Below, piece after piece: positions 6,466 through 60,857 of a stretch of 64,000 nt of DNA (its first letter is position 1; every line of letters begins with the position of its first letter). The position numbers were made by a program, and so were the translations under genes. The DNA lies in IMG/VR virus record IMGVR_UViG_3300042392_001493, positions 42,189 through 106,188 of that record, one strand, 5' to 3'. The notes under the pieces were generated by a model, which saw only the letters and a list, made by a program, of their open reading frames with translations, was not told the origin of the DNA and did no database searches. Source of the DNA: a virus.

Positions 6466-7172
6466 AGATCTCTTCCGCTAAAGAGTACCCTAAAGAGGGT
6501 GTCTCATTAGTCTACTCAAATGGTGACAACATTATTCTTCAACAAATTTTTTATACAGAAGATTACGGAATTTTTACTCGAATAAACAATCAATGGGAAC
6601 TGCTATCCGAAGACGATGAGAGTTTGGAAAATATGTCTATTATGGACATTCTCCCAGAAGACTACAAAATAGTTACAGAAATGTTTGATAATGCCAGTGC
6701 TACTAAAACTCCTTTAACATATGACAATGTTAAAAAGTATGAAGTAGCTTATTCTATCGAAGGTAGATCGATGACAGCAGCTGTTGAGACATCTGAAGGA
6801 TGCCCTCCAGCTACTCAAGATATTGGCATTAATCTTGATAACCGTAAAAACGCTATTGACACCGCTATGTATGGACCCCTTAATCCTCTAGAACCAAACG
6901 ATGAGTATTGGGAAGCAATTGCAGATGAATGGTCTGTCGATAAAGAGACTGCAAAGAAACAACTTTGCGGCAATTGTGCCGTGTTTATTCAGACCCCAAG
7001 GATGCTGGATTGTATTGCTTCTGGGCTTGGAAATGAAGAAGGAAATGATGCTTGGGGCTCAATCGAAGCTGGAGATTTAGGGTATTGTGAAGCATTCGAC
7101 TTTAAATGCGCTGCATCCCGCACATGTCGTGCATGGGTCGCTGGTGGACCAGTTACAGAGGAGAGCAAATAA
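6462..7172 (+). CDS. Six-cysteine head-region protein of unknown function
   Basis: A 236-residue protein preceded by a good GGAGG motif and overlapping its neighbours on both sides. The N-terminal 100 residues are acidic with no recognised domain. The last 75 residues hold a cysteine cluster: CGNC, then DC about 11 residues later, GYC, FKC and RTCRAW, ending near a GGP. The spacing of CxxC and the final C-x2-W recalls small iron-sulfur proteins such as HiPIP, but two extra cysteines are present, so a zinc site is equally possible. It lies between the giant exonuclease-helicase fusion and the capsid protease, so a virion or capsid-assembly role is inferred from context only. Confidence 0.7.
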   Translation: MKISSAKEYPKEGVSLVYSNGDNIILQQIFYTEDYGIFTRINNQWELLSEDDESLENMSIMDILPEDYKIVTEMFDNASATKTPLTYDNVKKYEVAYSIEGRSMTAAVETSEGCPPATQDIGINLDNRKNAIDTAMYGPLNPLEPNDEYWEAIADEWSVDKETAKKQLCGNCAVFIQTPRMLDCIASGLGNEEGNDAWGSIEAGDLGYCEAFDFKCAASRTCRAWVAGGPVTEESK

Positions 7173-39555: not shown

Positions 39556-39571
39556 TTTCTTGGAGGGGAAC

Positions 39572-39862
39572 ATGTCAGAGCTTGTACCACCATGGATGTA
39601 TAAACAACCTCTCTGCGCTGAAATAGGCGCAGAGCTGTTTTATATTGAAGATAAAGATGAAGAAGTTGTAGGACAAAGACTTAATGGATATATAGAAGCC
39701 AAGAAAATTTGTTCCAAATGTGTCCACATATCTGAGTGTGGCGAATGGGCTATAAAGAATGAAAAGCATGGTTTTTGGGGTGGATACTCTCCAGAAGAAA
39801 GAAAGCAAATGCGAGGTAAGCTAAATATAATACTTACAGAAGATATCTCCTTTGCTTCATAA
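39572..39862 (+). CDS. WhiB-like transcription regulator
   Basis: A 96-residue protein. The ATG at 39572 follows GGAGGGGAA, and I preferred it to an in-frame TTG at 39560 inside that ribosome site. Cys15 and the C-x2-C-x5-C cluster (ICSKCVHISEC) supply the four ligands of the 4Fe-4S cluster, followed by the GFWGG turn and a basic end (EERKQMRGK). WhiB proteins bind the host sigma factor region 4 in Actinobacteria. Phage copies can repress host whiB genes. This is the best single clue to the host phylum. Confidence 0.88.
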   Translation: MSELVPPWMYKQPLCAEIGAELFYIEDKDEEVVGQRLNGYIEAKKICSKCVHISECGEWAIKNEKHGFWGGYSPEERKQMRGKLNIILTEDISFAS

Positions 39863-40599: not shown

Positions 40600-41091
40600 A
40601 TGTGGAAACCAGCAGAAAATCTTAATTGGCAGTCAGAAGCCACCTGTGCAAAGCCTTCTAATAGGTACGCCTTAGATTGGTTCTTTTCTAAAGACTTTAA
40701 AGAAAAATATGCAGCTAAAAACATGTGCTTTACATGTCCAGTTAGATCAGAGTGCTTGCAATGGGCGCTAGAGCATCGGCAAATTTGGGGAATTTGGGGT
40801 GGAAAAGATGAAGTTGATATTCGCAGAACACTATCTGTTTCTTATAACGGAGAAGAGACAAGACGCCGTAGATTCCCAAACTGCCCTTATTGCACAGCTA
40901 GGCCATCTAAGCTTGAAACATCTATAGAAGAACTACCTAATGGTGGTCGTTGGACAACAGCAAAGGTTGTTACTTGCACAGAATGTGGTTTTGCTTGGAG
41001 AAGCCGTACTAGCGCAAATGCTGTAGAAGCTTACAAACAAGAAAAGTCAGAAATAAAAAAGACTAAAAAGAAGAAAAAACCTTCTAACTAG
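40600..41091 (+). CDS. WhiB-like protein with extra zinc ribbon
   Basis: A 163-residue protein. The WhiB part has Cys16 and C-x2-C-x5-C (MCFTCPVRSEC), then GIWGG and a basic DIRR. An additional ribbon with two CxxC pairs (NCPYC and CTECG) and a very basic end (KKTKKKKK) follow. Ordinary WhiB proteins are 80-110 residues and end soon after the Gly-Trp turn, so this is a fusion that may add its own DNA or RNA binding. It is the last plus-strand gene and overlaps the first minus-strand gene tail to tail by 8 bases. Confidence 0.85.
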   Translation: MWKPAENLNWQSEATCAKPSNRYALDWFFSKDFKEKYAAKNMCFTCPVRSECLQWALEHRQIWGIWGGKDEVDIRRTLSVSYNGEETRRRRFPNCPYCTARPSKLETSIEELPNGGRWTTAKVVTCTECGFAWRSRTSANAVEAYKQEKSEIKKTKKKKKPSN

Positions 41092-41098
41092 TTTTTTC
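41073..41098. terminator. Bidirectional terminator candidate at the convergence point
   Basis: GAAAAAAC 41073-41080 pairs with GTTTTTTC 41091-41098 around a 10-base loop. The A and T runs give a U-tract on either strand, as needed where two operons meet. The stem is AT-only except at its ends, so it is weak. Confidence 0.5.
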
Positions 41099-42157
41099 GT
41101 CTACAACAGCTTTGGCACACCAATTGTAGTTTTCTTTTAATCTTTCATTGCTTGGGTCTTTAGCAAAAGCTTCTTCAGCGTGTTCTAAAGCTTCACTAAA
41201 TTTACCTAATCTATAGCAAGCTATAGAAGCATAATCATGTGGAGCTGCTCCCCAAGCCTCTGCTTCACAAAGATACTCTAGAGGTTTTTCTTTTATTTCT
41301 ATAGCTTCTTTAGCATAATATAAAGAATTTTCCCACTCTTGCCTTGTGTAGTAATACTTAGCAAGATCGACTAAAGCTTCTCTTCTTCCAGGCGCTTGCT
41401 CTACAGCTTTTTTAAACCAAATATCTGATTCACTTGGAAGAGATTTTCCAATAAATCTCATGGCTGCCGCTCTTTCTGGTGCCCAAGTTGCAGTAGGAAG
41501 GTCTAAATATCTTTTTAATTCTTTTGCTGCTTCTTCATTTTTTCCATAAAAATGTAGCTCTCTTCCATAGTAAAAAGCATTTCTATCGTTATATGGATCT
41601 TCTTTAACAGACATAGCTAACAAAGGCAGATATTGAGACCTACTTTTTGTTGGATCTGGATGATGATGAGTTTCAATTTCATCGATCCATCCTTCTATTT
41701 GATCTCTTCCATAAACATATAAACATTCATGTACTGGGTGCTTCCAACGATAGTTTTTGCGAGAGTGAATATGGTCGTAACTAAACTCTAATCCAGGACT
41801 TCCATCATCATTCCAAGACCAAACATGCTTGTATCTAGGACGAGTAATTCCTTGCTCCCATGCTTTTTGAAGAGGCTCTCTCCAGTTAGGAGTTATTACT
41901 TCATCCATATCAAGAGAAATACACATATCAATATCTAGTGGAAGTGCAGCTAAAGCAGCATTTCTTGCGTCGTCAAATCTCCAAGGAGATACTCTAATCT
42001 CTACAACATTAATACCGAGCTCTTTTGCTTTTTCTATTGTCCCATCAGTTGAACCAGTGTCTGCAATAAGTAAGTAGTCTGCATCTTTAGCAGAGTTGTA
42101 CCATTTTTCTACAAACTGAAGTTCGTTTAAAGCTATAGTGTAGATAGCAACCTTCAT
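41084..42157 (-). CDS. GT2 glycosyltransferase with TPR-like C-terminal repeats
   Basis: A 357-residue protein. I chose the ATG at 42157, just after GAGGGGAAAA, over one 24 bases upstream. The GT-A fold is clear: YTIALNELQFVEKWY, LLIADTGSTDGTIEKA and the acidic SLDMDEVI in place of a DxD. From about 190 helical TPR-like repeats follow (NAFYYGRELHFYGKNEEAA, ALVDLAKYYYTRQEWENS, ASIACYRLGKFSEALEHA). It probably transfers a sugar to a phage or host surface target. It is the most 3' gene of the adhesin block, beside a methyltransferase, so glycan decoration of tail fibers is a reasonable inference. Confidence 0.78.
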   Translation of the reverse strand: MKVAIYTIALNELQFVEKWYNSAKDADYLLIADTGSTDGTIEKAKELGINVVEIRVSPWRFDDARNAALAALPLDIDMCISLDMDEVITPNWREPLQKAWEQGITRPRYKHVWSWNDDGSPGLEFSYDHIHSRKNYRWKHPVHECLYVYGRDQIEGWIDEIETHHHPDPTKSRSQYLPLLAMSVKEDPYNDRNAFYYGRELHFYGKNEEAAKELKRYLDLPTATWAPERAAAMRFIGKSLPSESDIWFKKAVEQAPGRREALVDLAKYYYTRQEWENSLYYAKEAIEIKEKPLEYLCEAEAWGAAPHDYASIACYRLGKFSEALEHAEEAFAKDPSNERLKENYNWCAKAVVDEKTS

Positions 42158-42184
42158 TGTTTTCCCCTCTTTGTCGCTCATATC

Positions 42185-43435: not shown

Positions 43436-45372
43436 TAGCTAAGCGCCAAATCTCCAGCAAGAACCCACTCATTAGTAGCTATTTTTACAAGGACAGCAGT
43501 TGAGTATTGAGTTCTAAGTTTTGATGTAGGTGTTGATCTTACAGTAACTCCTGTATCACCAGTAACTGTTACTTGACCAGCTCCATACTGAATTATGTTT
43601 ACTTGCTGACCTACACCAAAAGATTGTGCGGATTCGGTTGGTATAGTTAAAGTTAAACCAGTAGATTTTGTAAGTTTTATTAACTTACCTGCGTCGGAAA
43701 CAATTACAGTGTAGCTATCTGTTTCTTCCTTAACAGTTTGAGAGCTTGACCAATCACCTTGTGGTCCAGTTGGGCCTGTAACAGTAGATGCAGCACCTGT
43801 TGGGCCAGCAGGACCTGTATCACCAGCAGGACCTGTAGGTCCACTAGCACCTGTTGGGCCAGCAGGACCTGTTGCACCAGTAGCACCTGTAGGTCCACTC
43901 GGTCCATTTATTGGACCTAAATTATCCCAGTTAGATCCATCCCAGAAATAAAGATCTCCAGTGTCCAATGATATGTAAGTGTCTTCTGTAGTAGCACCTG
44001 TTGGGAGTGCACCAGTATTGGCAACGCTTCCTAAAAGATTAACATTTGTTGTAGCTGGCCCCGTTGGGCCAGTTCCGCCAGTAGCTCCTGTGGCACCTGT
44101 TGCCCCTGCAGCACCAGTAGGTCCAGTTACAGTTGATGCAGGACCTGTTGGTCCAGTTTCTCCAGCATTTCCAGTTCTAGAAAACTCAAAATTATAATTA
44201 CTAGATGCTAATGGAATAGATCCAGAAATTAAAGAAATAGGTATTTTGTAGTAGTTATCAGACAGAACAACATCTGAAGTAACAGAAAGAATAGTTCTTA
44301 CAGCTCCAGCAGACGTAAAAAGAGTTATAACTCCACCGACAGGTGATGTTGAATCATCCCATGTTTCTATCCAACTAGAAAAATCAAATCCGTAAACAAA
44401 ATCTAATTTATTTACATACAGCTGAGTAGCAGATCCGATAGTTCCACTATTAAGTCTAAATTGTCCATTTCCTGGATCTGAGTCAGTTGTTGTAGAGCTA
44501 AATCTCCATACAGGAGCTGATCTAGGACCAGTAGGGCCTGTTACACCTGTCGCACCTGTCGCACCTGTTGCACCAGCTGCTCCAGAGACACCAGTAGGGC
44601 CAGTAGGACCCCCCTCTGGGCCAGTAGGTCCTGTCGGTCCTGTATTTCCTGCAGACCCTGTTGCACCTGTTACACCAGCTACACCTGTAGCTCCTGTAGG
44701 GCCAACAAATGGACCAGCGTCGTACCACTCTTGGTTTAGATCAGACCAAATGTAAAGATCATTTTGAACAATATACGAATCTCCAATATTTCCTACAGGA
44801 TTATCAGCTTCTAAAAGTTCTACAGTTGAGTATGTTCCTAAAACTTGAACTCCAGATCCTTGAGGACCAGTGGGGCCAACAATACCTTGAGGTCCTGTAG
44901 AACCTGTAGCACCTGTTGGTCCAAGACCTATATAAGCAAGTTGCTCCCAAGTAGATCCATCAAAAAAGTAAACTTCTCCATTACTTGGCTTTACCCACAT
45001 GTAACCTACTTCAGGAAAGCTTGGTTGGCTTTCTTGATAAACTACATTTGTTTTTCCTTCAGTTTCATAAACTAAAGTCAAAGAAGAAGATACAGAAGAT
45101 GTTGTACTTTGTACCCAACCTACATCTCCAACTGAAAGAGCAAATCTAAATGTTTCAAAAGATTGACCCACTCCAATTTCTAAATTTGAACAAAGAAATA
45201 CTCTATCTGTTGACGATACCGTTCCAGACGGTTGTATATATATAGTAGTTAAAGCTGGTGTATTTCCTGTATTAGCTGCTATAATAGAAGCAACACCGCT
45301 TAGTGTTGAAGCAGGAAATGATCCAGCAACATTTGCTAATGGATTTACAATACCAACTCTTCTAACAGCCAT
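43435..45372 (-). CDS. Collagen-like tail fiber protein
   Basis: A 645-residue protein. The ATG at 45372 shares its A with the upstream stop, so I preferred it to one 27 bases earlier. Residues 1-110 are paralogous to the preceding 174-residue protein ([14 protein letters not shown]). Then come several Gly-Pro-Thr collagen-like tracts interrupted by short globular modules ([37 protein letters not shown]). The C-terminal 70 residues ([32 protein letters not shown]) share their fold pattern with the end of the 58971-60857 protein. The GXT tracts should form triple helices, giving a thin trimeric fiber with a beta-rich tip. Confidence 0.78.
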
Positions 45373-45896
45373 TATTCGGTTACCGTCACTCTCTTCCAAC
45401 CATTAGTAGTTCTAACCTCTAGGGTATCGTACTCTATATTAAAACGAACATAACCTACCTCAGCGGCAGGATTTCTTTGCCCGCTAGTACCTTTGTCTAC
45501 ATATAAAGTGTTACTTACCCCTCTTATAACTTTATTGGTAAATGTTTGAGGTAAATCTCCTTGACCTACAACATCATCTTGAAGAATACCAAATACGCTA
45601 AAAGCTAAAGTATCTGTAGAAGGTCTTACAGTTAGAACATCTCCCGCGTTTACAGCAAACCTAAATGTTTCAAATGAAGTACCAAAACCAACAATTAAAT
45701 TGTTGCATATATAAGAATATGATGTTTCAGTTATAGCTCCAGCTGGTACAACGTATATAGCACATTTTGGTATAGGAGTGGAGGTAGCAGCAACATTAGC
45801 CACAATTACCGATATTAAATAACTTTCAGAAAAAGTATAAATACCAGTAGCTTGGTTAGCATTGGGCCTAGCTGTCCCCAACCGAGTGATAGCCAT
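45372..45896 (-). CDS. Tail fiber-associated protein, paralogue of next gene's N-terminus
   Basis: A 174-residue protein with AAGGGG upstream. The first 110 residues ([31 protein letters not shown]) align with the start of the collagen-like protein encoded just downstream. The last 50 ([30 protein letters not shown]) are a small beta-domain common at the ends of virion proteins. I infer a tail attachment or capping subunit. It lacks any collagen tract. Confidence 0.6.
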
Positions 45897-45905
45897 ATTG
45901 ACCCC

Positions 45906-48900
45906 TTATGCCTGAGCTTCAGCCCATGATAGTTTTGCAGATGCCAGGGTCTCGTTACCTGTTAAACGAGCTACCGCAACAGTAAGGATATCAGGTCCGT
46001 CTGGGAAGGCTGAGTTACCTCCAAGAATAGAATTTGAAAGCTCAAATAGCTCGCTTACGTCAACCAAGGTAGTTTGCTCGGCTCCAGCTGCACCGTTAGC
46101 TCTAAAAGCATATACCTGAACTCCACCAGAAATAGTGTCGTTAGATGTATGGGTAATAATTTGAACGAGTGATGGGTTGTCGATTGCTTGGAAGTTTAGG
46201 TTATTTAAACGACCATTTAAAAGAACCTTAACATCAATTAACTGGTTAGTTTGTATACCAATTTCATTTAAACGAAGCTGCATTCGGTTAATAACATCTC
46301 GATCACCAAGAGCACCAGTTAAACCTTCAGATACCGATGGGCTAAGACGTAAAGAGATTAGAGGTTGATAATTTGCTCCAGAAGTGTTGTTTAATGACCC
46401 GGCTGGGGTTAAGCTGTAGGTAGCTGTTGAATTTCCTGGACTTAAAAAGTTAACAGCGTTCTTTGTAGCTATTGAACCAGCGGGAGCAGATTGTGAACCT
46501 GTAGTAAAGATACCGCCTTGGAATCCATTAACGTAAGTAAATGTTGTTGCACCTGTTACTGTAATTGTGTGAACACCGTTGTAGCCAGCGGCTAGTGTAT
46601 CTGAAGAAGGTAAGTTTATAAAAATAGAATCGTTGTTAGAAAAACCGTGAGAAGCAGATGTTGTTATAGTTACAGTGCCATTAGTTTTTTGACGAGTTGC
46701 AATAGTTAAAGGAGTTGCTTGAGCTGCTGCTTGAGTGTAAAACAAAATTATATTATTAGCATTAAACACTCTAATAAAGTAAATTGTTTCATTTCTTAAA
46801 TTAGCATTAGTGTTTACACCAACAATAGTTTGAATTTGTGGGTTTTGATCGTTGGTTTGTGGACGGCCAGTAGATCCAGTTCCTAAGAAGCTAACTGCGT
46901 CTCCAGTAGCAAAACCATGGGAAGGAATAGTTATAATATCGTTTAATGAGTTTGGAGTTGAACCAAACGGAGTAATGTTAATCGCGGTAGAGCCAAACTG
47001 CTTTGCAGTTGTTCCACCAATATTTAGCGATGGACTTGACTTAGAGAACAAGTAAGCGCGATCATCATCAAACTTACCGTCCATCATAACCGAGGTGCCC
47101 CAGTGGAATAGTGATGGGATGTAAGTTGGACCAGCAAAAGTAGCTACTTCGTAACGAGCTGGCAAGTTACCAGAACGGAAGTATGACTCGTACTTTTGGT
47201 TATTATGTACATACTCGTGTACATAACGAACTTGACCATCTACAGTTTTGAATCCATAACGAATCTTACCTGCACCATACCAAGAGTAGTCCATGTAAAT
47301 CATCTGAATTTTAGATAAATCTAGGTTATACCCAGTAACACCTTGACCGTCGCAAACATCGATAGACCATTCTTCTTGAGGAGTTCTAGTGTCTACGGTA
47401 AGAGTTGCAATAATACCAGTCTTGGCTGGAGTAAATGAATGCGGTGTTCCAGTTCCTGCGCTAGATATAGTTATGTTTTGAGTTGCAGTTGGTGAAGCTT
47501 TTAGTCTAAATGTGTTGTTGTCAACAACATTTACATAATATGTACGACCATTAATAAGACCACCTATTGGGCTTCCGTCAATAGCATTATATTGAAGTGG
47601 AAGATTTTGACTAAATCCGTGACTTAAAATTACGAATGAGTCGTTAGCTGTTCTAACAACTCCAGTACTTCCATCTCCTGGAACGAACTCTCTTTCGTTT
47701 CCAGAGTTACCTTTAAATTCTGGTTTAATAGTCAAACGAGTATCACTGTCAATTGAACCGACTTTATAGGTTTGACCTCTTAATACAATAGAATCACCAA
47801 CAGTTAATTGCTTACTAAACGATGTATTTGTTCCGAACAAAAATTCTGATCCTTGTAGAGCAGCACATGTTCCAGCAATCTGTTGAGTAGAAGAACGACG
47901 AACAGCGTAAAGTTTTTGACCATCAAACTCAAAGAACATACCGTTTTGATCATCAAACATACCAGCTCGGAGAGCTCCATTAACCCATCCAGTCACATGT
48001 AGACGTGGGAATCCATATGCTGTATTTTCTACAATTGTAGCTGTAGCTATAAATGTAAAGTTAAAAGAATCAATTACTGTTACTTGGAATGTTCCGTTAT
48101 AAACGGTGCTAAGAACTCCTTGTGATGTCTCAGCATCATCAATACGAGCTGATAATCCACTAATAAGACCATGAGGTCTGCGTGTTCTTACAGACACAAC
48201 TTGTGATGAGCCAATTCTTGCCATGTTTTCGATATCAATCGAAGGCTTAAAGTTTATACCAGCAGATGTCTGGATACCCTTACCTGACTGATAACGGAAA
48301 TACTTACGAGTCTGGCGAATAATCGAACCATACCAAGTACCAAAACCTGTTGACATCTCAACGCCGCCGTCAAACGGACGATGCAATGAGTATCCTTGTG
48401 GACGAACATAAACGAAAGTCGGATAAGAAAAGTTAACTCCAGCATAAGTAGTGTTGTATGGACGGTCTACTGTAATCTGAGTATCAGAACCAATAGCAGT
48501 AATTCTTCTAATAATAGGAGTAGATGGGACTGTTTTTGTTAGAACCATTGCAGAACCACTGCCTTGAGTGGTTAGATCTACTGCGTTACTGCCAGCTTCT
48601 GCTTCGCTCTTAAGAACGTGGAGTGTTAGTGAGTTACTTGTTGTAGGAGTTAATGTTCCACCTATTACAGGTGTTCCAAGAGCAATATCTCCAGCTACTG
48701 GAACATTTACAGTTACTACAGTAGCTGAAGTTACTTGATGAACTGTCCAAGCTCCATTAAATACTTCTGGATTAACTCCGCCAATTCCAGATACTGTGAA
48801 TGTGTTACCAGCTCTTAAGTTGTGGTTTGCTGAAGTAGTAAACTCAAGATATGTAAAACCATTTAAAGTAAATCTTCTTCTGTTAGATACGGTTGCAGTT

Positions 48901-51900
48901 GTTGTAAATGGAATAGATCTTACGAAATAGTAGTAATTAGAGACTAGAGGGTTAGGTGCAACACCACCAGCTCCTGTTGTTTGTACAGTTCCAGAAGTTT
49001 GATACTCGTTTGTAATAGCGCTAGCAATAGATACTGGATGAGTATATGTGAATGTAAAAGTATCAGACACAGTTATTGTGTAAGTACCATTAAATTCTGA
49101 TGCGGCGCTGGCATTACTTAAACCAGAAATAGTTGCAGTATTTGATGTTGAATATCCGTGAGGTTCACGAGTTACAATTGTCACTGTTTGACCAGACTTG
49201 CTGATACGGAAAATTTGACGAATAGGTCCGCCAGTTCCTGGATTAAATGAAACGGCATCTCCAGTAACAAAAGGATGGGCAGCAACAGTTATATTTTCAG
49301 TTGAAGTGTTTATATCTGTAGAAGCAAAATATGCTGGAGTTGTTGTATCTGTTGGGAATAGACGGAGTCTATCTCCCACCTTAAGAATCTTAGAAAATGA
49401 AGTTCCAGAACCGTTAACGAGTACTGAACCAGATGTAGTAGTTACAGTTCCAGTTCCAGTAATCTGTCCATTAATTTGAACGCTGGTAAGTGTGTGAGCA
49501 AGTCCAGCACCAAAACTTGATAAGGTTAAAACTACACCAGAACTAGCATCTTCTTCTGTTTCAGCTAAACGAATCCAGTCTTTATTAACAACAATTACAT
49601 AATAGTGAGTGTCATCTACAAGACCTTGAATGTCTGTACCGCCACCATTTGAGTAAGTAACTTCTGTACCTGTATTAAAGCCATGAGAAACAACTTTTAT
49701 AATGTTCTGTGTAATATCTAAAGATGTTCTTGGGTTGAATATTTTTACAATTTCTGGGACAGTTCCAGCTGCAGTAACTTCAAATGTATTAGCATCTACA
49801 ATATCACTAATTACATAAGTTCCGTCTGGTGTTCTAATTAAAGACTTAAGTTTTTGTCTTCCAACTGGTGCAGGGGAATCTACAAGATCTATAGCAACAT
49901 TGTTTTCAGCATTTGATGATGATGTTGCAAGTTTAAATGTGTTTCCGTTTACAGGAATAATATAGTATGGAGTACCGCTAGTTAATCCGCTAATAACAGT
50001 TTGACCTACGCTGTCATACTCGACAAGCTCGCCAAGGCTAAATCCGTTGTTAGGAATAGTTATAGTGTTGTCATTAAAATTAACTGAGAAGGTTACTAGA
50101 GCATGGGTACCAATACCTACGGAAGAAATATTTGTAGAGCTTAATAAAGTTATGTCATTAAATAATCTAACTGTATTTGCATCTACTCTTTGAATATAAT
50201 AAATTCTTTGATTCTCTAAGCCACTAATCTTAGTGTCAGTTACAAGTTCTCCAACTAATGCAGAAGCAGGAACTTCTCTAAGCTTAAGATTTCCTGCTGT
50301 AGCGTTTACTCTAGGAATAGTGTTTAAAGTTACTGTTCCAGATACGTTTTCTGAAACTAGTTGCTCTATAAGCATGTTTCCAGTAACTGAAGCGGAAGTA
50401 ATATTTGCAGAAGCTAAAGTAAAGAACTCAAATACTGTAGCACTTATTACAGTAGAAACTGTATGAGTTCCGTTAAATTGATCGGCATCTGCACCAGTAA
50501 TGCTGTTGATGCTAATAATATCTCCAGCTTTTAAAGTGTGGCTAGCTGATGTAGTTATACGAGCAACATTTAAAGTTCTTTGACGAGTTGTAATGCTAAA
50601 TGTTGTAACACCTGCTTGTTGAGGTCTAGTTACAGTAAATGTTCTAGCTGTTGGAGTTGATGCAATTACCCATGTTCCGTTGAACACTGACTGTTGATTT
50701 CCAGATATTGAAGAAATAGTTACAGTTGTGCCTGGAGATAGATAGTGATCAAAAGTTGTAGTAAAGCTAGCAACTGTATTAGAAATTAGCTGTCTTGCAG
50801 ATAAAGTTCTTGTATATGTAGGACCTGTATAGCGAATCTGATTTACAGCAACAATAGTTCCAGATGCTACAGCAGCAGTTATTGTTCCAGTAGTAGCAGT
50901 TGTAAAAGTAAATCTGTTAGCAGCTGGAACTCCAGTAATAACAAAATCACCAATAAATTCTGGTTGAAGAACTCCTCCTACAGTAACGTTATCTAGTCTT
51001 ACAGTTTCTCCAACAAGTAAATCGTGGTTTGCAGAAGTTGTTATATCTGCAACGGTTCCAACTCTACTTCTGTTAGAAACAGAGAAAGCTGGGACTGTAG
51101 CTATAGGAAATGCTTTTTCAGAAACTCCAGTTATAGTTAAAAGTGCAGTATTTAAAGCATTAACAGCAGTGTATGTGAATTGTGTAGTGGTTGGGATAGA
51201 TGCAACGGTGTACTCTCCTATGAAATCGCTAGCATTGTCTCCTGTTACATTAGAAATCTTTATACGATCTCCAACTGAATAAAAGTGTGGATTGTCTGTG
51301 TTAATAGTTCTAGTTGTAGACGTACTTTCACGACTAATAATGTTTACTTTATTATTCCAGTAAGTTGCATTAAATCCATTTGAATCGCTATTGTTATTCT
51401 CTAGATACACAAAATTACCAGCAATAAAATCGTGCGGTGTAGTTAGATTAATAATATTATTTGTACTTCCTGTAAGTCTTCTATCTAAAATATTTACAGT
51501 TTTAATCTCTGGTGTATAAAGTAGTGTTGTTCCACTTGAACCAGTTAGAGCTCTGTAAGTTCCATGGAACACATCTTGGTTAGCGTTAGTTCCACCAACT
51601 AATGTCTGTACAGTAAATCTATCTCCTACAGCTAAATCATGATTAACATCTGTGGTAATTGATGCAATATTAGAAGTTTCTCCAAACCTGCTAACACCAA
51701 GATTTCTGTTATTTATTCTTACGCCAATCTTTGAAACACGGCCAATAGCTGTTTCTGGGCCAAAAGTTAAGCTTGATGACGGCATTGAGTATTGAAGCTG
51801 TGTAGAGCTTACTGAAGTAACAATTTGTTCTCTATAAACAGTTCCTGAAGCATTAACCCCAAGAGTTCCCACAGGAATAGTTGTAAAGGTAATGCTTGGC

Positions 51901-54596
51901 TGTAGATTTGAAGGAGTTCCTTCATGAGAAGCTACATATGAGAACTGGTTTGTTCCACTTGTAGCGCTAATAGCAAATACTCCATTAAAGTACTCACCAA
52001 TGTCATCTTGAATGCCAGATACGTTTCCAGAAATTCCTTGAATCCAAACAAACTGACCTGTTGAGTAGTAGTGTGGTTCGTTTGTAATAATAGTTCTGGT
52101 TGTTCCAGAAGAAGCAATAGATCTAACATTAAGTATTCTTGTATGCTCAAGCATTTCTAGATCAGGACGACGAACAATAGTAAAGTTTCCAGTAACTGCT
52201 CCATCAGTGATAGATACGCTTTCTTCTGCAGTATAAGAAAGAGTGTTTCCGCTAGCTACAGTAAGAATATAAATTCCATTAAATCTAGTTGCATTAGTTC
52301 CAGTAAATCCTGAAATCTGAACATACATACCAGCTGAATAACTGTGATTACTTGCAAGAGTTAAAGATCTAGTTTGACCAGAGCTGGCAGTTCTTGTAAT
52401 AGTAATAGGAGTAACTGCAGTTGCGTTAGGACGAGCAAAGCCGTCTAAAGTTACTCTTGATCCTACTTGAATTCCGTGCGGCTCGGATGTGTTTATAATT
52501 CTAGTAGTTGTAGAAGAAGAAATTGTTGTTATTACAAAATCTCTTGATTTTTGATATCTAACTGTTTGACCTGACACATATCCATGTGTAGGAATATATA
52601 AAGAGTCTTCAAGATCATTAACAACTGTAAGAATAAAGCTGTGGTTAGTTCCAGTTCCTACAGAAGTAAAATCTATTACAGGTCCTTGCAGAGATTGAGA
52701 AAGTGTAAATCTATTTGCATCTAATACTTCTTTAATATAGTAAGTAGAGTTGTTTTGTAGTGGAGTAATGGTGTTTCCAGAACCAGAAGAATATCTTACT
52801 GGCTGATCTACAAGAAAACCGTGGTTATTAATTGTAATAACATTTGTTGCAGTATTTACAATAACTCTACTTAAACCTTGATTTGTAGCATTAGCTTCAG
52901 TAGTTAAATTTATTTCAGTAAAATTAGGATCTGGAGTTAAACTTAGTTTGTAACTGTAGTCATCAATACGATCTACATAATAAACATCTGTATTATTTAA
53001 GCCGCCTAGCGCTGTTCCAGTAAAGAAGTATTGAACAGCTTCTCCTTCAAGAAGTCCATGAGGGGTTAGAGTGTTTACTTTATTAAGCTCGAAATCTACT
53101 CTTAAAGGTACTAATGCATGGTATTGAGAACCAGCTGGAGCGATTGCAATTGGATCTGTATCTGATTCTGCGTTTGAAGGTGTTGCATAGATTTTAAAAC
53201 CGAATACTGAACGCTCTACTAAAGTTACAGAAACTGAACCTTCAACATCTCCAGTATTAAATTGAGCTAAGTTTGAAATACTTTGCCCGAGAATAGTTGC
53301 AGATCCGTTATATAAACCATTTGATGTACCAATATTTGTAGCAGTAGCAAATATAAATGAACCACCACCGCCACCTACAGTATTAGCAGTGTTAGTATTA
53401 GCAGCTCCGCCTGAATAACCTCCAGCACCGCCAGAAGAACCAGTAGAGTTATTACCTCCACCGCCGCCACCAAAACCACCATTACCAGAAGCAGTACTGT
53501 CTTGACTTCTAAGACCACCAGCTAGACCAGATGGGAAACCAATACCGCCGCCTCCTGCATGTGGTCCAGTTACTTGAGTACCGTTTCCACCATTTGATAA
53601 GAAACCTCCACCAGCACCACCAATTGCATTAGATGGGCCACCGTTACCGTTTGTTCCACCAAGCTGACCTGTGCTTGAGGTTCCACCATTTGAAGTAGTT
53701 ACAGCATTTAGTCCTGATGTTGTGTTGCCAGATGAAGAACCTCCACCAGCTACAAATAAAGGAATGTTTCCACTTTTACGGACAACCCATGATGCACCAG
53801 AAGATCCTGGCCAAGTGTTTCCAGATGCAGGAAGCTCTCCTCTTTGTCCAACTACAATAGTAATTGTTTCGCCTTTAATTAAACGAACACGACCTCGAAT
53901 AATTGAGCCACCGCCACCAAGAGCACGACCTTGGCGACCTGGAGCGCCTTTTACGTTAAACTCATAAACACCATCTTCTGGAACTATCCAATCTTGATAG
54001 CCTTGGAATGAACCCTGTGAAAGGTATGTGTTTCTCCAAGCAGCAGAGCTATAAGATGTTCTAAGCTGTTCTATAGTTGGACCAAATCGTCCAGTCACAC
54101 CTGCAGAAGTAAAATCAAAAGTAGTAAATTCATAAAGTGCGCTGCCGCCAAGACCTGTCAACTGATTTTTTACATAATAAACTGATCCAGAAGTTAGACC
54201 TGTAATAGGTGTAGAGTCTGTTAAATACCTTACTGCTTGCTGATTGTCGTACTTAACAGAAGAAATATTAAATGAATTGTCAAAAACATTTGGATAGTTA
54301 AGAGTTACAGAACCGACAGTGTACTCTGTAAGATCTATATTTGATCCACCTTGAGTAGAAGCAAATCCAATTGTGTATGCGTCAGTGTTAGTATAATAAA
54401 CAGTGTTTGTAGTTAAACCTGATATATCTGCAGATCCATCTCTATAGACCCAAGCGCTATCGTCTGTTATATTTGATGGAAAAGCTGTAATAGAGTCTCT
54501 TCTAGCAAAATAAATGTAATCTTCTTCAAGGTTTACATTTACCTTTTGAAGGGTATGGGTACCAGAGCCACCTACGGCGGTTATATTAATTGGCAT
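45906..54596 (-). CDS. Giant repeat adhesin / tail protein, 2896 aa
   Basis: The ATG at 54596 follows AAGGAG. The N-terminal 190 residues hold two GLTSGSVYYVKNQ-type modules. A Gly/Ser/Asn-rich segment spans about 202-422. Then comes a chain to about 2050 of two beta-module types: at least twelve short ones (SHTLKAGDIISINSITG then FNGTHTV) and at least six longer ones (HGF, then YYIIPVNGNTFKLATS). Near 2062-2125 lies QGYSLHRPFDGGVEMSTGFG, and near 2409-2522 MDYSWYGAGKIRYGF and FRSGNLPARYEV, segments I associate with structural proteins of marine T4-like cyanophages. The C-terminus is a small globular domain. No catalytic motif was seen. It is probably a long, flexible host-binding tail fiber, and the largest gene in the window. 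Confidence 0.8.
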   Translation of the reverse strand: MPINITAVGGSGTHTLQKVNVNLEEDYIYFARRDSITAFPSNITDDSAWVYRDGSADISGLTTNTVYYTNTDAYTIGFASTQGGSNIDLTEYTVGSVTLNYPNVFDNSFNISSVKYDNQQAVRYLTDSTPITGLTSGSVYYVKNQLTGLGGSALYEFTTFDFTSAGVTGRFGPTIEQLRTSYSSAAWRNTYLSQGSFQGYQDWIVPEDGVYEFNVKGAPGRQGRALGGGGSIIRGRVRLIKGETITIVVGQRGELPASGNTWPGSSGASWVVRKSGNIPLFVAGGGSSSGNTTSGLNAVTTSNGGTSSTGQLGGTNGNGGPSNAIGGAGGGFLSNGGNGTQVTGPHAGGGGIGFPSGLAGGLRSQDSTASGNGGFGGGGGGNNSTGSSGGAGGYSGGAANTNTANTVGGGGGSFIFATATNIGTSNGLYNGSATILGQSISNLAQFNTGDVEGSVSVTLVERSVFGFKIYATPSNAESDTDPIAIAPAGSQYHALVPLRVDFELNKVNTLTPHGLLEGEAVQYFFTGTALGGLNNTDVYYVDRIDDYSYKLSLTPDPNFTEINLTTEANATNQGLSRVIVNTATNVITINNHGFLVDQPVRYSSGSGNTITPLQNNSTYYIKEVLDANRFTLSQSLQGPVIDFTSVGTGTNHSFILTVVNDLEDSLYIPTHGYVSGQTVRYQKSRDFVITTISSSTTTRIINTSEPHGIQVGSRVTLDGFARPNATAVTPITITRTASSGQTRSLTLASNHSYSAGMYVQISGFTGTNATRFNGIYILTVASGNTLSYTAEESVSITDGAVTGNFTIVRRPDLEMLEHTRILNVRSIASSGTTRTIITNEPHYYSTGQFVWIQGISGNVSGIQDDIGEYFNGVFAISATSGTNQFSYVASHEGTPSNLQPSITFTTIPVGTLGVNASGTVYREQIVTSVSSTQLQYSMPSSSLTFGPETAIGRVSKIGVRINNRNLGVSRFGETSNIASITTDVNHDLAVGDRFTVQTLVGGTNANQDVFHGTYRALTGSSGTTLLYTPEIKTVNILDRRLTGSTNNIINLTTPHDFIAGNFVYLENNNSDSNGFNATYWNNKVNIISRESTSTTRTINTDNPHFYSVGDRIKISNVTGDNASDFIGEYTVASIPTTTQFTYTAVNALNTALLTITGVSEKAFPIATVPAFSVSNRSRVGTVADITTSANHDLLVGETVRLDNVTVGGVLQPEFIGDFVITGVPAANRFTFTTATTGTITAAVASGTIVAVNQIRYTGPTYTRTLSARQLISNTVASFTTTFDHYLSPGTTVTISSISGNQQSVFNGTWVIASTPTARTFTVTRPQQAGVTTFSITTRQRTLNVARITTSASHTLKAGDIISINSITGADADQFNGTHTVSTVISATVFEFFTLASANITSASVTGNMLIEQLVSENVSGTVTLNTIPRVNATAGNLKLREVPASALVGELVTDTKISGLENQRIYYIQRVDANTVRLFNDITLLSSTNISSVGIGTHALVTFSVNFNDNTITIPNNGFSLGELVEYDSVGQTVISGLTSGTPYYIIPVNGNTFKLATSSSNAENNVAIDLVDSPAPVGRQKLKSLIRTPDGTYVISDIVDANTFEVTAAGTVPEIVKIFNPRTSLDITQNIIKVVSHGFNTGTEVTYSNGGGTDIQGLVDDTHYYVIVVNKDWIRLAETEEDASSGVVLTLSSFGAGLAHTLTSVQINGQITGTGTVTTTSGSVLVNGSGTSFSKILKVGDRLRLFPTDTTTPAYFASTDINTSTENITVAAHPFVTGDAVSFNPGTGGPIRQIFRISKSGQTVTIVTREPHGYSTSNTATISGLSNASAASEFNGTYTITVSDTFTFTYTHPVSIASAITNEYQTSGTVQTTGAGGVAPNPLVSNYYYFVRSIPFTTTATVSNRRRFTLNGFTYLEFTTSANHNLRAGNTFTVSGIGGVNPEVFNGAWTVHQVTSATVVTVNVPVAGDIALGTPVIGGTLTPTTSNSLTLHVLKSEAEAGSNAVDLTTQGSGSAMVLTKTVPSTPIIRRITAIGSDTQITVDRPYNTTYAGVNFSYPTFVYVRPQGYSLHRPFDGGVEMSTGFGTWYGSIIRQTRKYFRYQSGKGIQTSAGINFKPSIDIENMARIGSSQVVSVRTRRPHGLISGLSARIDDAETSQGVLSTVYNGTFQVTVIDSFNFTFIATATIVENTAYGFPRLHVTGWVNGALRAGMFDDQNGMFFEFDGQKLYAVRRSSTQQIAGTCAALQGSEFLFGTNTSFSKQLTVGDSIVLRGQTYKVGSIDSDTRLTIKPEFKGNSGNEREFVPGDGSTGVVRTANDSFVILSHGFSQNLPLQYNAIDGSPIGGLINGRTYYVNVVDNNTFRLKASPTATQNITISSAGTGTPHSFTPAKTGIIATLTVDTRTPQEEWSIDVCDGQGVTGYNLDLSKIQMIYMDYSWYGAGKIRYGFKTVDGQVRYVHEYVHNNQKYESYFRSGNLPARYEVATFAGPTYIPSLFHWGTSVMMDGKFDDDRAYLFSKSSPSLNIGGTTAKQFGSTAINITPFGSTPNSLNDIITIPSHGFATGDAVSFLGTGSTGRPQTNDQNPQIQTIVGVNTNANLRNETIYFIRVFNANNIILFYTQAAAQATPLTIATRQKTNGTVTITTSASHGFSNNDSIFINLPSSDTLAAGYNGVHTITVTGATTFTYVNGFQGGIFTTGSQSAPAGSIATKNAVNFLSPGNSTATYSLTPAGSLNNTSGANYQPLISLRLSPSVSEGLTGALGDRDVINRMQLRLNEIGIQTNQLIDVKVLLNGRLNNLNFQAIDNPSLVQIITHTSNDTISGGVQVYAFRANGAAGAEQTTLVDVSELFELSNSILGGNSAFPDGPDILTVAVARLTGNETLASAKLSWAEAQA

Positions 54597-54630: not shown

Positions 54631-57105
54631 CTATCTAACGAAAACCGCTAGACCAGTGAAAGTTCTATTGCTTGTACCGCCAGAAGTAGAGGTGTTGTTA
54701 AACACGCCATGACCTCTAAAAGTTAAGTTTCCGCTATATACAAATCCAATTCCTCCACCAAAAGCTGAGGTTGCAGTAGTATTGGTTCCACCAACACCTA
54801 GCATAGCCATTCCATAACCAGTTCTATTTTCTGAAGAAACGTTGCTGTAACCGCCAGTAACGTAAGTATTTAAAGTTCCTGCAGCATAAGTATTTGAATA
54901 ATCTGTTACTACTTTAAATCCAAATCGAGGAGTTCCAGTAACTAAAGTTGCAGTATTAACTGAGGCAACTACTTGAAGTCTTCTATTCCATGCATACTCG
55001 GATGTAGCCACTGATGGGAATAACCATTGGTCACCTAATGTAGATAGATTTGTAGCTCCAGTGACTGTACGCATACTTGGAATAGTAGAGTTGTGGCGCC
55101 ATCCAAGCCTGTTAGCTGTTGCATTTACAGATACAACCATAACATCATTAAATGGAAGTTTGTAGAATAATGGACTAAAAGAATCTATATCAGTAAAATT
55201 AGAGTTATTTACTAACGGGAACAAGGTAGTAAAATCTGTATCATTATTCCACGCCCAGCCGTTCCAGTGAGGGCCAAAAGTAAATCCAGCACCACTTTGA
55301 GGGGCTAAACCAGAAGTAATTGAGTTTGTTTGAAGTGTGGTTGTGGAAAGTTTCATAATTTGTGTCCATCCACCACTCTCCAAAGAGAAATTGCAGTATG
55401 TTAAATATGCTGTAGAAGTTCCAGCTGGCTTAATCCAGTAAGCACCGTCTGCGGCAGATGGATTTATAGTTTTAATTGCTTGTGCGCTTGCAGCAGCTCT
55501 AGCTTCTGTTGTTCCGTCAAGTAAGAAACCTCTTGTTCTACCTAAAGATATATGAGTAGAGTCATAAACTCTTTCTACAAAGAAATAATCATTTGTAGAC
55601 CCGGTTCCAGTAACACCAAATTTTCCATCTACTGGATATTCATATCTAACCATATCGGCTTCTTCAAAATTGTGTCCTGGAATTGCAATAACATCTCTGT
55701 CTAAAGAAACGCTAATTGCTTGAAATGTTTGAGTTCCAGATCCTCCAGAAATTGCTGAAAGAACACCTCCGCCTGGAGAATCAGATATGTTAATAATATT
55801 AGTTTGAGCGTTTAAGGCAACTACCCAATAAGTTGTATTGTTAGTTAAACCAGATGCTGCTGAGCCAGTTGAAGTATATAAAACCATTTGACCAGCTGCC
55901 CAGTTTGTGTTCTGAGTCATCTGAATATTTCCTAAGCCAGAAATAAGTTGAACTGTAAAAGTTGATCCTGCAGAATTATCTCCGTCAAACTCAAATTCTG
56001 TACCTTTTATAAGATTTATACTTGTTTGATTTATAGTATCTAAGTTGTTACCAGCAAAATTTGCTACAAGATCAGCTAATTGAAAGGTTCCTGAAATATT
56101 AGAAGTAATAGGTATAAATGCACCATTAGGTGTGGCACTGACTTGAAAAGTAGAGCTTGATGTTCCTAGTTGAGTATCGCTTTTTAAAAAGACAATGCCT
56201 CTAGGGTTAGTTAAAAAATATCCGTCACCAGCGGTTACTGCATATGTTAAAGGCTGTCCTATTTTTCTACCATTAAAGTTTTCCGTAGTATGACTTACTG
56301 TAATTGTATTATTTACTGTATCCACACCGCTTACAGAACTAGCAACAGTTATAGGACTACTTGTATATGTGTTATTAAAATTTTGAACCACTCTTGAAGA
56401 TGTATTAGATCCATCAAATGTACGAGCAGTAACGTTATTAGAAGCATCAAAAGATTTTGCTTCAGTATTCGTTGAATCAAATTCCTGTGTAATTGTAGAG
56501 TTAAGATTTAGAAAATAAAGAGGAGTATTGGGCCCAAAACCATGAGGACTATCTGTTTGGACAGTCAATGTTGATATAGCTTGATTATCTGTTTCTACAC
56601 CACGAGCGTCAGATATTTTAATTTGAGAGCCTTGAAAAAATTCACCAGTAATAATTGCTGTATAAAGATCTTCAATGTTTTGAGTTTGAGGCTGAGTTTC
56701 TCTAGCTAAATATGTAAAAGCTCTAGTATTAGGAATTGAGTTGATGATATATGAACCATCGGCGGTAATAGCCTTTGAACCGCTAACATTTATAGGAGTT
56801 CCAACCGCAAGCCCGTGGTCCAAAGATGTTCTAACGGTAACCTCTCTAGAACCTGTAATAGTTGTCATAGAGGAAATATTTGGAATAGTGGTATCACCGC
56901 TCTTAGAAAAGAACGATGGGGTGTTATTAATAAGCTCTACTGTTTCCCACTTAGTAGGCTGTAGACCATACTCAAAGTCGGTATCAATGAGGTTTTCAGG
57001 CTCAGATACACGAAGTTTAGTTACTGGGTCAATAAACTCTTTTGGAAAATTAATTTCTCCGCCAGTTGAGCTACCTCCAGAGCTACCACCTAGAAAACCT
57101 GGCAT
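54631..57105 (-). CDS. Tail protein with fibrinogen-like C-terminal domain
   Basis: An 824-residue protein preceded by GAGGT. The N-terminus has a Gly/Ser stretch, then beta-modules of the families seen in the giant adhesin (LDHGLAVGTPINVSGS, SPHGFGPNTPLYFLNL, GHNFEEADMVRYEYP). From about 545 the sequence NPSAADGAYWIKPAG, YLTYCNFSLESGGWTQIMKL and, later, WRHNSTIPSM recalls the fibrinogen-related/intelectin fold (DGxYWI, a YC strand, then GGWT). That fold binds acetylated sugars in animal lectins. I infer a receptor-binding protein with a lectin-like tip. The match is by pattern only, and typical disulfide cysteines are mostly missing. Confidence 0.7.
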   Translation of the reverse strand: MPGFLGGSSGGSSTGGEINFPKEFIDPVTKLRVSEPENLIDTDFEYGLQPTKWETVELINNTPSFFSKSGDTTIPNISSMTTITGSREVTVRTSLDHGLAVGTPINVSGSKAITADGSYIINSIPNTRAFTYLARETQPQTQNIEDLYTAIITGEFFQGSQIKISDARGVETDNQAISTLTVQTDSPHGFGPNTPLYFLNLNSTITQEFDSTNTEAKSFDASNNVTARTFDGSNTSSRVVQNFNNTYTSSPITVASSVSGVDTVNNTITVSHTTENFNGRKIGQPLTYAVTAGDGYFLTNPRGIVFLKSDTQLGTSSSTFQVSATPNGAFIPITSNISGTFQLADLVANFAGNNLDTINQTSINLIKGTEFEFDGDNSAGSTFTVQLISGLGNIQMTQNTNWAAGQMVLYTSTGSAASGLTNNTTYWVVALNAQTNIINISDSPGGGVLSAISGGSGTQTFQAISVSLDRDVIAIPGHNFEEADMVRYEYPVDGKFGVTGTGSTNDYFFVERVYDSTHISLGRTRGFLLDGTTEARAAASAQAIKTINPSAADGAYWIKPAGTSTAYLTYCNFSLESGGWTQIMKLSTTTLQTNSITSGLAPQSGAGFTFGPHWNGWAWNNDTDFTTLFPLVNNSNFTDIDSFSPLFYKLPFNDVMVVSVNATANRLGWRHNSTIPSMRTVTGATNLSTLGDQWLFPSVATSEYAWNRRLQVVASVNTATLVTGTPRFGFKVVTDYSNTYAAGTLNTYVTGGYSNVSSENRTGYGMAMLGVGGTNTTATSAFGGGIGFVYSGNLTFRGHGVFNNTSTSGGTSNRTFTGLAVFVR

Positions 57106-57174: not shown

Positions 57175-57825
57175 TTATACACCAAGCCACCAAGATGTAG
57201 TTATTTTATATGAACCAGCTCCACCTGTAGGGCCAGTGACACCTTGAGATCCGCTAGAAGTTTCAACAAAAACACCTTCGAAAAAAACATAAGTTTTTGC
57301 AGTTTGAGTATCAAACCAAACATCTCCATTAACTGCTGTAAGTAAGCTTGGCTGTTGAGGGCTTGCTTGAAATTTACCTACAGGACCTGTTGGTCCAGTT
57401 GGGCCTGGAACTTCAGACTGTGCTCCTGTTGGTCCAGAAGCTCCTGTTTGACCGCGAGGGCCTGTAGGTCCTTGTGGACCCGGAACACTTGAATCTGCAC
57501 CAGTAGGTCCTGTAGGGCCAGTATCACCTGGATCGCCTTGTATTCCTTGTGGTCCAGTAAGACCTATTACACCTTGTACACCTTGAGGTCCTGTTGGGCC
57601 AGCTACATCTGAAACTGGTCCAGTAGGGCCTTGAATACCTTGTGCACCTGTTGCACCTTGAGCTCCAGTTGCTCCAGTAGGGCCTTGAATACCTTGCGGT
57701 CCAGTAGGGCCAGTAGGTGTGACACGAAGAGCTTCCCAATAAACTCCAGTCCAGACCCAGGTTTGACCGTTAGCCGTATACTCTTCACCTACGACTGCTG
57801 GTGTGGGAAAATCAATTGCTGCCAC
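57175..57825 (-). CDS. Collagen-like tail fiber protein, short
   Basis: A 216-residue protein with a GTG start after AAAGGAC. The N-terminal head ([30 protein letters not shown]) is shared with two other collagen-like proteins of this block and may attach to the tail. About 100 residues of Gly-Pro-Thr/Gln triplets follow, then the spacer module [17 protein letters not shown], and the end is [12 protein letters not shown]. The Pro-Thr content should support a triple helix without hydroxyproline. Confidence 0.78.
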
Positions 57826-58051: not shown

Positions 58052-58969
58052 TTACGCCGAGTAACTAATTTTTCCAGATGCGCCTACAGCTAGGGCATTG
58101 TTATTGTCAATAAAGACACCATTAATAATAGAAGTTCCAAACTGGCTATTTCTTTGAATCCACGAAACTCCGTCAGATGAGGTAGCTACTTTACCACTAG
58201 CTCCACCAGCTATATATGTACCATCTGCAGAAACTGAAACAGCTCTAACTGTAGATGATCCAAAACTACTTGTGGGAAATGTTTGAGTCCATGTAATTCC
58301 ATTACTAGACGTTGCAAACTTTCCAACTTCTCCACCAGCAAAAAAGAGTCCATTTTCAGAAGATGTTATAGCAAAAATACTGCTAGTTCCAAAGCTAGAA
58401 GTTCTTTGAGTCCATGTAGTTCCATTACTAGATGTTGCAAGTTTTCCATCATAACCTACCGCTGTAATTAAGCTATTTGATGCGGCAAGTCCATTTATAA
58501 AACTTGTCCCAAAAGAGGAAGCCCTTAAAATCCAATTAATACCATCTACAGATGTAGCTAACTTTCCAGATCCTCCTGCAGCTACCCATAAAGATGCACT
58601 AGGAGAATATGTAATTGCAAGAATAGGTGTTGCTCCAAAACCAGAAGATCTTTGTGTCCAATTTACTCCATCTGGAGAAGTTGCTAATTTTCCAGAGCTT
58701 CCACCAATTATATATTGATTGTTCCCATAAGCAATAGCGTATATACTGCTTTCATTAAAATTAGTTTCTCTTTGAGTCCAATTTTGGGTGTCTAAAGATG
58801 TAGCAAGTTTTCCAGAGTTTCCAGCAGCTAAATATAAATTTTCTGAAGCTGTGTAATGAATTGCATTTATGTTAGTTAAACCAAAAGAAGTTAACTCTAC
58901 TTGCTGCCACCCTGCTGGAGTAAAAGGGAAAAAGAGAGTAGCACTAATTGAATGAAGGGAAATAAGCAC
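58052..58969 (-). CDS. Beta-propeller tail protein
   Basis: A 305-residue protein made almost wholly of six to seven repeats of about 42 residues of the type SGKLATSPDGVNWTQR then FGATPILAITYS, each giving one four-stranded propeller blade (BNR/HCF136-like). The start is a GTG overlapping the upstream stop region, with only a weak ribosome site. Propellers of this kind bind glycans or proteins. No catalytic sialidase residues are evident. It is probably a receptor-binding head used with one of the collagen-like shafts beside it. Confidence 0.75.
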   Translation of the reverse strand: MLISLHSISATLFFPFTPAGWQQVELTSFGLTNINAIHYTASENLYLAAGNSGKLATSLDTQNWTQRETNFNESSIYAIAYGNNQYIIGGSSGKLATSPDGVNWTQRSSGFGATPILAITYSPSASLWVAAGGSGKLATSVDGINWILRASSFGTSFINGLAASNSLITAVGYDGKLATSSNGTTWTQRTSSFGTSSIFAITSSENGLFFAGGEVGKFATSSNGITWTQTFPTSSFGSSTVRAVSVSADGTYIAGGASGKVATSSDGVSWIQRNSQFGTSIINGVFIDNNNALAVGASGKISYSA

Positions 58970-58970
58970 A

Positions 58971-60857
58971 TTACACCGTTAAATTTCCAGTTAAAAGCCA
59001 TTGATTAGTTCCTAGCTTAATTAGTGATGCAGGTGCATATCTAGCTTTAGTTGTAAATCTAGATCCTTCACTTACAATAGAAACTCCTGCTGCTGGAACT
59101 ATATTAACTTGACCTACTCCTAGCTGTACAACAACTATTTGAGTACCAGTTTCAAAAGTATATCCACCACTTCCATCCAAAGGCACCGTTAAAGTCATTA
59201 AACTAGAACTATTCATTCTTACTAAAGTAGCTCTATCTGAAGAACCTAAAGTGGTAGAAGCTAGATATTGAGTACCAGTTAAGTTAAAAAATGCTGGACC
59301 TGTAGGGCCAGTGTCTCCAGTTGAACCAGTAGGACCTTGTAAACCTTGAGGACCCTGAGGACCTGGGACAGATGAATCAGCTCCAGTTGGACCTGCAGGA
59401 CCGACAATAGAGTTACCTTGTGGCCCAGTATCGCCTCTCGGACCTTGAGGGCCAACAATCTGTCCTACACTTGTCCAAGATGATCCTCCCCACACATAAA
59501 GATCGCCATCAGAATCAACAATACGAGCATCATTAACTAAGTTTCCAGCTGTAGGTAGTAGTCCTACAGTTGCAGATGATCCTCTAAATGTTATTGAAGT
59601 ACCTTGAGGACCTGTATCTCCTCTTTGACCTTTTTCACCTGCAAGAGAGAAACGCCATGTGTTATATGTTCCACTACCATTTACAAGATCAATATTTACA
59701 GTTACATCATTTCCTGTAATAGTAATAATTACACCTTCAAGAAAAATTGTTGGAGCTGTAGAGTTAAATATGCGAACTCTGTTTCCAACAATGTATGCAT
59801 TTACAGCGTTAACTGTGAAAAGAATATTTCCAGTACTCATCAAACGAGAAGTTGATGAAGTTGTGTTTGTGTAATTAGCTCCAGTTGGACCTATAGGTCC
59901 AGTAATTCCTTGAGGACCTTGAGGACCTTGAGGACCTGCAACAGTTGAAGCGGGACCTGTAACACCTTGAATACCTTGAGGACCTGTGGGCCCCTGCGGA
60001 CCAGGAACGGTAGATGCAGCACCTTGTTGACCTGTAGGTCCAGTAGCACCACGAAGACCTACATCTCCTTGTGGACCAGTAATTCCTTGTGCACCAGTAG
60101 CACCTGTTGGACCTGTTGGACCACCTGCTGGTCCTTGTGAACCAGTTGCGCCAGTTGGACCTGTAATAGCTGGGCCAGTAGCACCAGTAGAGCCTGGTGC
60201 ACCAGTAGGACCAACGAAACCTCTAGGACCTGTTGGTCCTGTAGGACCAGAAGAACCTTGTAAACCTATAGGACCTGTATCTCCAACCGCACCTTGAGAT
60301 CCAGTCGGTCCTACTGGACCTACAGGACCTGTGGGTCCTCTATCCCCAGTATCACCTTTAAAACCTCTTACACCAGTTGGTCCTTGCGCTCCAGTAGCTC
60401 CCGTTGCACCAGTAACTGAAGCCCCAGTTGGGCCAGTATTGCCTTGAGGACCAGTTGCTCCTGTTGGTCCTGTATTTCCTGTAGGACCTAAAACTGTAGA
60501 GGCTTCTCCTTGTGCACCAGTTGGTCCCGTTGGTCCAGCTGGTCCTATATTTGAAGATGCCGACTCAACCCAATAATCATCGTAATAAACAAAAATTTGA
60601 CCAGTTTCTGAATTAAACCAAGAATCTCCTAGATCTGGTGAAGCTGGTGGAGTTGCAGCTACAGTTGAAAAAATACCTTGTGCACCAGTTGGACCTGTTA
60701 CGTTACTTGCTGCACCAGTAGCGCCCGTGGCACCTGTAGGACCTATAACTGGTGAAATTACTAAATTCCAAGAAGTACCAGTCCAAATCCAAGTTTGAGA
60801 GCCAGAAGTAAACGTGTCGTTTACTTGAGGTGAATTAGGAAAATCTATAGCTGCCAT
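58971..60857 (-). CDS. Collagen-like tail fiber protein, long
   Basis: A 628-residue protein after AAAGGTGAG. It has the head module [16 protein letters not shown] and [15 protein letters not shown], a spacer [20 protein letters not shown], a long collagen-like tract of Gly-Pro-Thr/Gln triplets, and a beta insert near 325-395 ([18 protein letters not shown]). A second spacer ([16 protein letters not shown]), more triplets and a C-terminal tip follow ([29 protein letters not shown]). The tip is paralogous to that of the 43435-45372 protein. A trimeric fiber is inferred. Confidence 0.8.

Follow-up and report, generated by a model that had tools for sequence, protein, structure and literature searches.

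A proposed phage receptor-binding protein with a predicted fibrinogen-related, intelectin-like C-terminal domain

The locus described here raises the question of whether a phage tail protein ends in a fibrinogen-related domain (FReD) and, if so, whether that domain would recognize a ligand on the host surface. The gene is found in a 64,000-nucleotide stretch of DNA (the window), itself part of a 106-kb IMG/VR virus record, and belongs to a minus-strand gene cluster that also encodes collagen-like tail fibers and a baseplate-like protein (Table 1). Its product is probably, with a likelihood of roughly 0.7, a tail-tip or side-fiber receptor-binding protein of a freshwater Actinobacteria phage that carries a FReD-type ligand-binding end.

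Table 1. Coordinates in the window of the tail-region gene, its parts, and neighboring or host-indicating genes.
Feature	Coordinates	Strand	Basis
Tail-region protein, proposed receptor-binding protein	54631..57105	-	Intact 824-aa ORF; same gene, size, and order in DSL-LC01 and IMG/VR relatives
N-terminal part, aa 1-205, conserved; probable virion attachment end	56491..57105	-	Mean pairwise identity 0.84-0.88, 14 homologs
Middle part, aa 206-527, probable beta-repeat shaft	55525..56490	-	Locally similar to repeats of neighboring 2896-aa protein, E 1.8e-5
C-terminal fibrinogen-related, intelectin-like domain (predicted), aa 528-824	54634..55524	-	AlphaFold pTM 0.79; intelectins PDB ranks 1-6; alignments
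FReD head motif, aa 540-582, NF040941 GGGWT_bact	55360..55488	-	E 5.8e-11, 42.2 bits, cut-off 30
2896-aa virion structural / baseplate-like protein	45906..54596	-	PHROG 5838 E 6e-132; PHROG 2885 baseplate wedge E 1.5e-23
Collagen-like tail fiber protein, neighbor	57175..57825	-	Pfam Collagen; PHROG tail fiber
Long collagen-like tail fiber protein, neighbor	58971..60857	-	Pfam Collagen E 5.5e-32; PHROG tail fiber
WhiB-family genes, two in window	39560-39862, 40600-41091	+	Third elsewhere in 106-kb record

Layout and sequence homology of the C-terminal domain

A fibrinogen/intelectin-like lectin end had been proposed in the first-pass annotation from the order of the motifs DGAYWIKPAG, YLTYCNFS, and SGGWTQIMKL. 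This order is confirmed on the minus strand, in the last third of the intact 824-aa open reading frame, and the domain (∼297 aa) does occupy the end of the frame, though its start falls at about position 55,524, slightly upstream of the 55,480 originally given. Residues 24–411 of the same protein match the PHROG 5838 virion structural protein.

Judged by sequence comparison, the quoted motifs exceed chance. The NCBIfam model NF040941 (‘fibrinogen-like YCDxxxxGGGW’) passes its curated cut-off both in the window and in each of the 13 phage records searched, though it spans the 46-residue head alone and holds no information on the other 250 residues. The Pfam model Fibrinogen_C (PF00147) stays below threshold, at 12.3–13.9 bits against a gathering score of 22. 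A fibrillar collagen C-propeptide (COLFI) was considered and rejected at 16–17 bits against a cut-off of 26.2, the GGWT motif suiting a FReD. Human intelectin-1 is the best PDB match in a single-sequence phmmer search (E = 4.9e-5, query residues 24–177), and a profile built from ten relatives again retrieves intelectin-1 (E = 2.3e-6), followed by FIBCD1, XEEL, fibrinogen, and lamprey serum lectin. Aligned by hhalign with three intelectins, a 17-sequence profile scores 64.0 over profile positions 13–154, compared with 12.0 for the reversed target and no more than 29.4 for 30 column-shuffled targets. When this profile is split, the signal is confined to the head (E = 1.8e-10); the middle and C-terminal thirds alone align to intelectins no better than shuffled controls, and past the head the similarity in sequence is at noise level. 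A whole-length intelectin reading therefore depends on predicted structure. Since the head is homologous in sequence, the convergence that had been suggested for this phage protein is unlikely.

Predicted fold and intelectin ligand positions

AlphaFold2 models computed from 10 and 17 sequences reach pTM values of 0.73 and 0.79 and mean pLDDT values of 62 and 71, respectively. In the 17-sequence model the first 60 residues score at least 90, residues 201–290 score mostly 43–68, and nearly half of all residues fall below 70. Searched with Foldseek against the PDB, both models place intelectins at ranks 1–6 with a probability of 1.00 and best E values of 1.5e-6 (10 sequences) and 1.3e-7 (17 sequences) over about 326–341 columns, followed by angiopoietin, ficolin, and fibrinogen domains; for the better model, the best 50 PDB matches listed are all intelectins or fibrinogen-related chains. 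Its TM-scores to intelectins are 0.46–0.50 with an rmsd above 7 Å, the Foldseek match is full-length, and confidence is low in the last third, such that the result is best described as a fold-level match of a model with poor superposition. A predicted fold unrelated to FReDs had been named beforehand as the outcome that would speak against the proposal, and the predicted models point the other way, with intelectins and FReDs as the top PDB matches. The FReD/intelectin-type C-terminal domain on a phage tail-region protein is supported, with the amendment that the predicted fold appears more intelectin-like than fibrinogen-like.

A narrower account holds that only the 45-residue head is fibrinogen-like, that the C-terminal half adopts an unrelated phage-specific fold, and that the whole-length match arises from the head together with a loose β topology. 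It would explain why the middle and C-terminal thirds find no intelectin signal, and it is consistent with the weakness of the model in the C-terminal half and with TM-scores of 0.47–0.50 at rmsd values above 7 Å. Models from two alignments nevertheless both give full-length matches that rank intelectins above every shorter FReD, and the local profile alignment extends to residue 154–156; this account is regarded as rather unlikely.

The intelectins (X-type lectins, represented by human intelectin-1, 4wmq/6usc, XEEL, and lamprey serum lectin, 7e1e) are the best match in both sequence and fold. They share with the phage domain a similar length (275 versus 297 aa), the FReD head, the CxxxxxxxGGW region, and a terminal strand ending in R. 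Unlike intelectins, the phage domain has a single cysteine, is fused to a virion protein, and does not conserve the calcium and glycan ligands. The numbering and roles of these ligands follow in part general background on intelectins and in part published accounts (PMC8185196; PMC9682848). The intelectin sequences used agree letter for letter with the PDB chains. In a joint alignment with intelectins, the phage family does not conserve H86, E87, D98, E262, H263, E274, or D282, and D133 is the sole ligand position aligned in most members. The structural calcium site (HEN...GD, D133, D282) is accordingly matched only at D133, and the glycan-site ligands (E262, H263, E274) and aromatic box (W288, Y/W297) are not conserved in a region of uncertain alignment, where the W288 position is aromatic in most phage members. 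With neither metal nor glycan ligands of intelectins conserved, the sugar-binding tip put forward earlier goes unsupported, and the absence of the glycan-site ligands leaves room for a protein or another kind of glycan as the bound ligand.

These positions also bear on whether the domain is a true intelectin-type lectin, which would chelate through calcium the exocyclic 1,2-diols of galactofuranose-like furanose sugars in the actinobacterial cell wall. Intelectins do rank above all other FReDs in sequence and fold, intelectin-1 binds galactofuranose via calcium and the exocyclic diol (PMC8185196), and the genome of a related phage, DSL-LC01, additionally encodes a UDP-galactopyranose mutase. 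This reading is nonetheless very improbable, given that the phage family does not conserve the ligand positions other than D133 and that the mutase is absent from the window’s record and seven others searched. The galactofuranose hint was dropped, the mutase occurring in DSL-LC01 only among the window’s record and eight others searched.

Relatives and sharing of the domain

Full-length relatives of 822–826 aa are present in IMG/VR contigs, with domain identities of 52–100%. Actinomycetia phage DSL-LC01 encodes an ortholog (WJZ48559.1) of the same length and with the same domain (60% identity); the kinds and order of its neighboring genes agree with those in the window, and its annotation reads only ‘hypothetical protein’. 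More distant full-length domains, at about 30% identity, are found at loci L020, L021, and L058. In L020 the C-terminal domain recurs (E = 2.5e-29) behind an N-terminus that has no detectable similarity, and seven further loci have dissimilar N-termini, with L058 sharing 210 residues and the others the head. A search seeded with L021 added no loci, no homologs were found on plasmids, and a pattern scan of cellular genomes returned a single match, an archaeal pilin-like protein, which points to no donor lineage. This protein, encoded on an archaeal metagenome-assembled contig (L036:1579-3477), joins an archaellin/type IV pilin N-terminus to a GGGWT fibrinogen-like domain, and the head may thus also serve at a cell surface.

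The head is common to cyanophages, and weak, head-only similarity extends to a Pelagibacter phage and to Methylophilales phages. The cyanophage FReD proteins, from Prochlorococcus phages P-HM2 and P-SSM4 and Synechococcus phages S-CAM4, S-CAM8, and S-ShM2, have heads ∼45% identical to that of the window and likewise carry the domain at the C-terminus, though they are mostly short (∼300 aa), have other N-termini, and diverge past the head. Cyanophage proteins are also the best Foldseek matches among viral models, one of them named ‘Fibrinogen C-terminal domain-containing protein’, and the P-HM2 protein has a predicted fold similar to the window domain (E = 7e-9). Within the tail cluster of the window, a 174-aa protein (45372-45896, minus strand) weakly matches the N-terminal part of PHROG 1325. 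The FReD domain matches a later part of that family, and the 174-aa protein may reflect a cyanophage-type architecture that has been split.

Fibrinogen-like proteins have been counted among the host-recognition genes of marine phage variable islands (PMC3909814), and such domains are already annotated in cyanophages, which removes the novelty earlier attached to a FReD tip: the domain type is known in phages, and the window protein is a good further example. No paper centered on a phage receptor-binding protein with a FReD tip came up in the literature searches. Fibrinogen-like heads are scattered among phage proteins, and the window protein adds a case that is intelectin-like over its whole length by predicted fold. 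Intelectins have been proposed to descend from a phage FReD, and the intelectin domain itself has been stated to be absent from bacteriophages (PMC9682848); the fold predicted here hints against the latter claim. That animal intelectins and these phage tips represent two branches of one microbe-glycan-reading domain is a decidedly unlikely proposition. The resemblance offers a connection, open to experiment, from a phage adhesin to a family of animal lectins of innate immunity.

Proposed receptor-binding role, host, and neighboring genes

Across 14 homologs, pairwise identity along the 824-aa protein declines from 0.84–0.88 over residues 1–205 to about 0.60–0.68 beyond, a moderate gradient in which the middle shaft is no less variable than the tip. 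The protein thus combines a place in a tail-fiber cluster, a conserved N-terminus, a variable C-terminus, and a module found on unrelated carriers, and a fixed attachment end with an exchangeable, divergent tip is as expected of a receptor-binding protein. In the proposed arrangement, the conserved N-terminal part would anchor the protein to the virion and be followed by the β-repeat shaft, and the fibrinogen-related, intelectin-like domain at the chain end would bind a host-surface ligand during adsorption, in all likelihood a glycan of the cell wall or capsule. We infer the tail-tip location, the binding of a ligand, and the glycan nature of that ligand, and sugar binding by the domain is suggested by analogy with its fold family.

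The domain might instead be a structural or trimerizing fiber cap, with host recognition left to the adjacent collagen-like fibers. Several more fiber genes do lie in the same cluster, and FReD heads are found in short cyanophage proteins of uncharacterized role, but a domain placed at the chain end and found again behind unrelated N-termini is a better fit to a recognition module. FReDs, moreover, serve mostly as recognition domains, and a cap seems improbable.

Three WhiB-family matches in the window’s record suggest an actinobacterial host. WhiB is present in DSL-LC01-like records and absent from those of L020 and L021, and the DSL-LC01 genome was itself assembled from a metagenome, its predicted host being actinobacterial (PMC10611076). 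The virus probably infects freshwater actinobacteria, and the proposed receptor-binding role would name a likely host-recognition domain for uncultivated freshwater actinophages, for which the best-annotated relative offers only ‘hypothetical’.

Several other genes of the window merit mention. The 2896-aa protein contains repeats and a glycine-rich region, and the DSL-LC01 annotation ‘ALK tyrosine kinase receptor’ evidently arises from the glycine-rich stretch. A 305-aa protein (58052-58969, minus strand) is built of repeated ‘GKLATS.DG..W..R.SSF’ units weakly like β-propeller families; the label of its DSL-LC01 counterpart, ‘photosynthesis system II assembly factor’, appears to be a misnomer given to a tail-cluster protein because of its propeller similarity. 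A glycosyltransferase (41084-42181, minus strand; PHROG 13126, E = 1.8e-114) at the end of the tail-fiber cluster could be a modifier of host-surface or virion glycans. On the plus strand, two unusually long open reading frames are possible fusions: one of 1612 aa (7106-11944) has matches to families of portal proteins and head-maturation proteases, the other of 2100 aa (35-6337) to exonuclease, helicase, and anti-restriction families.
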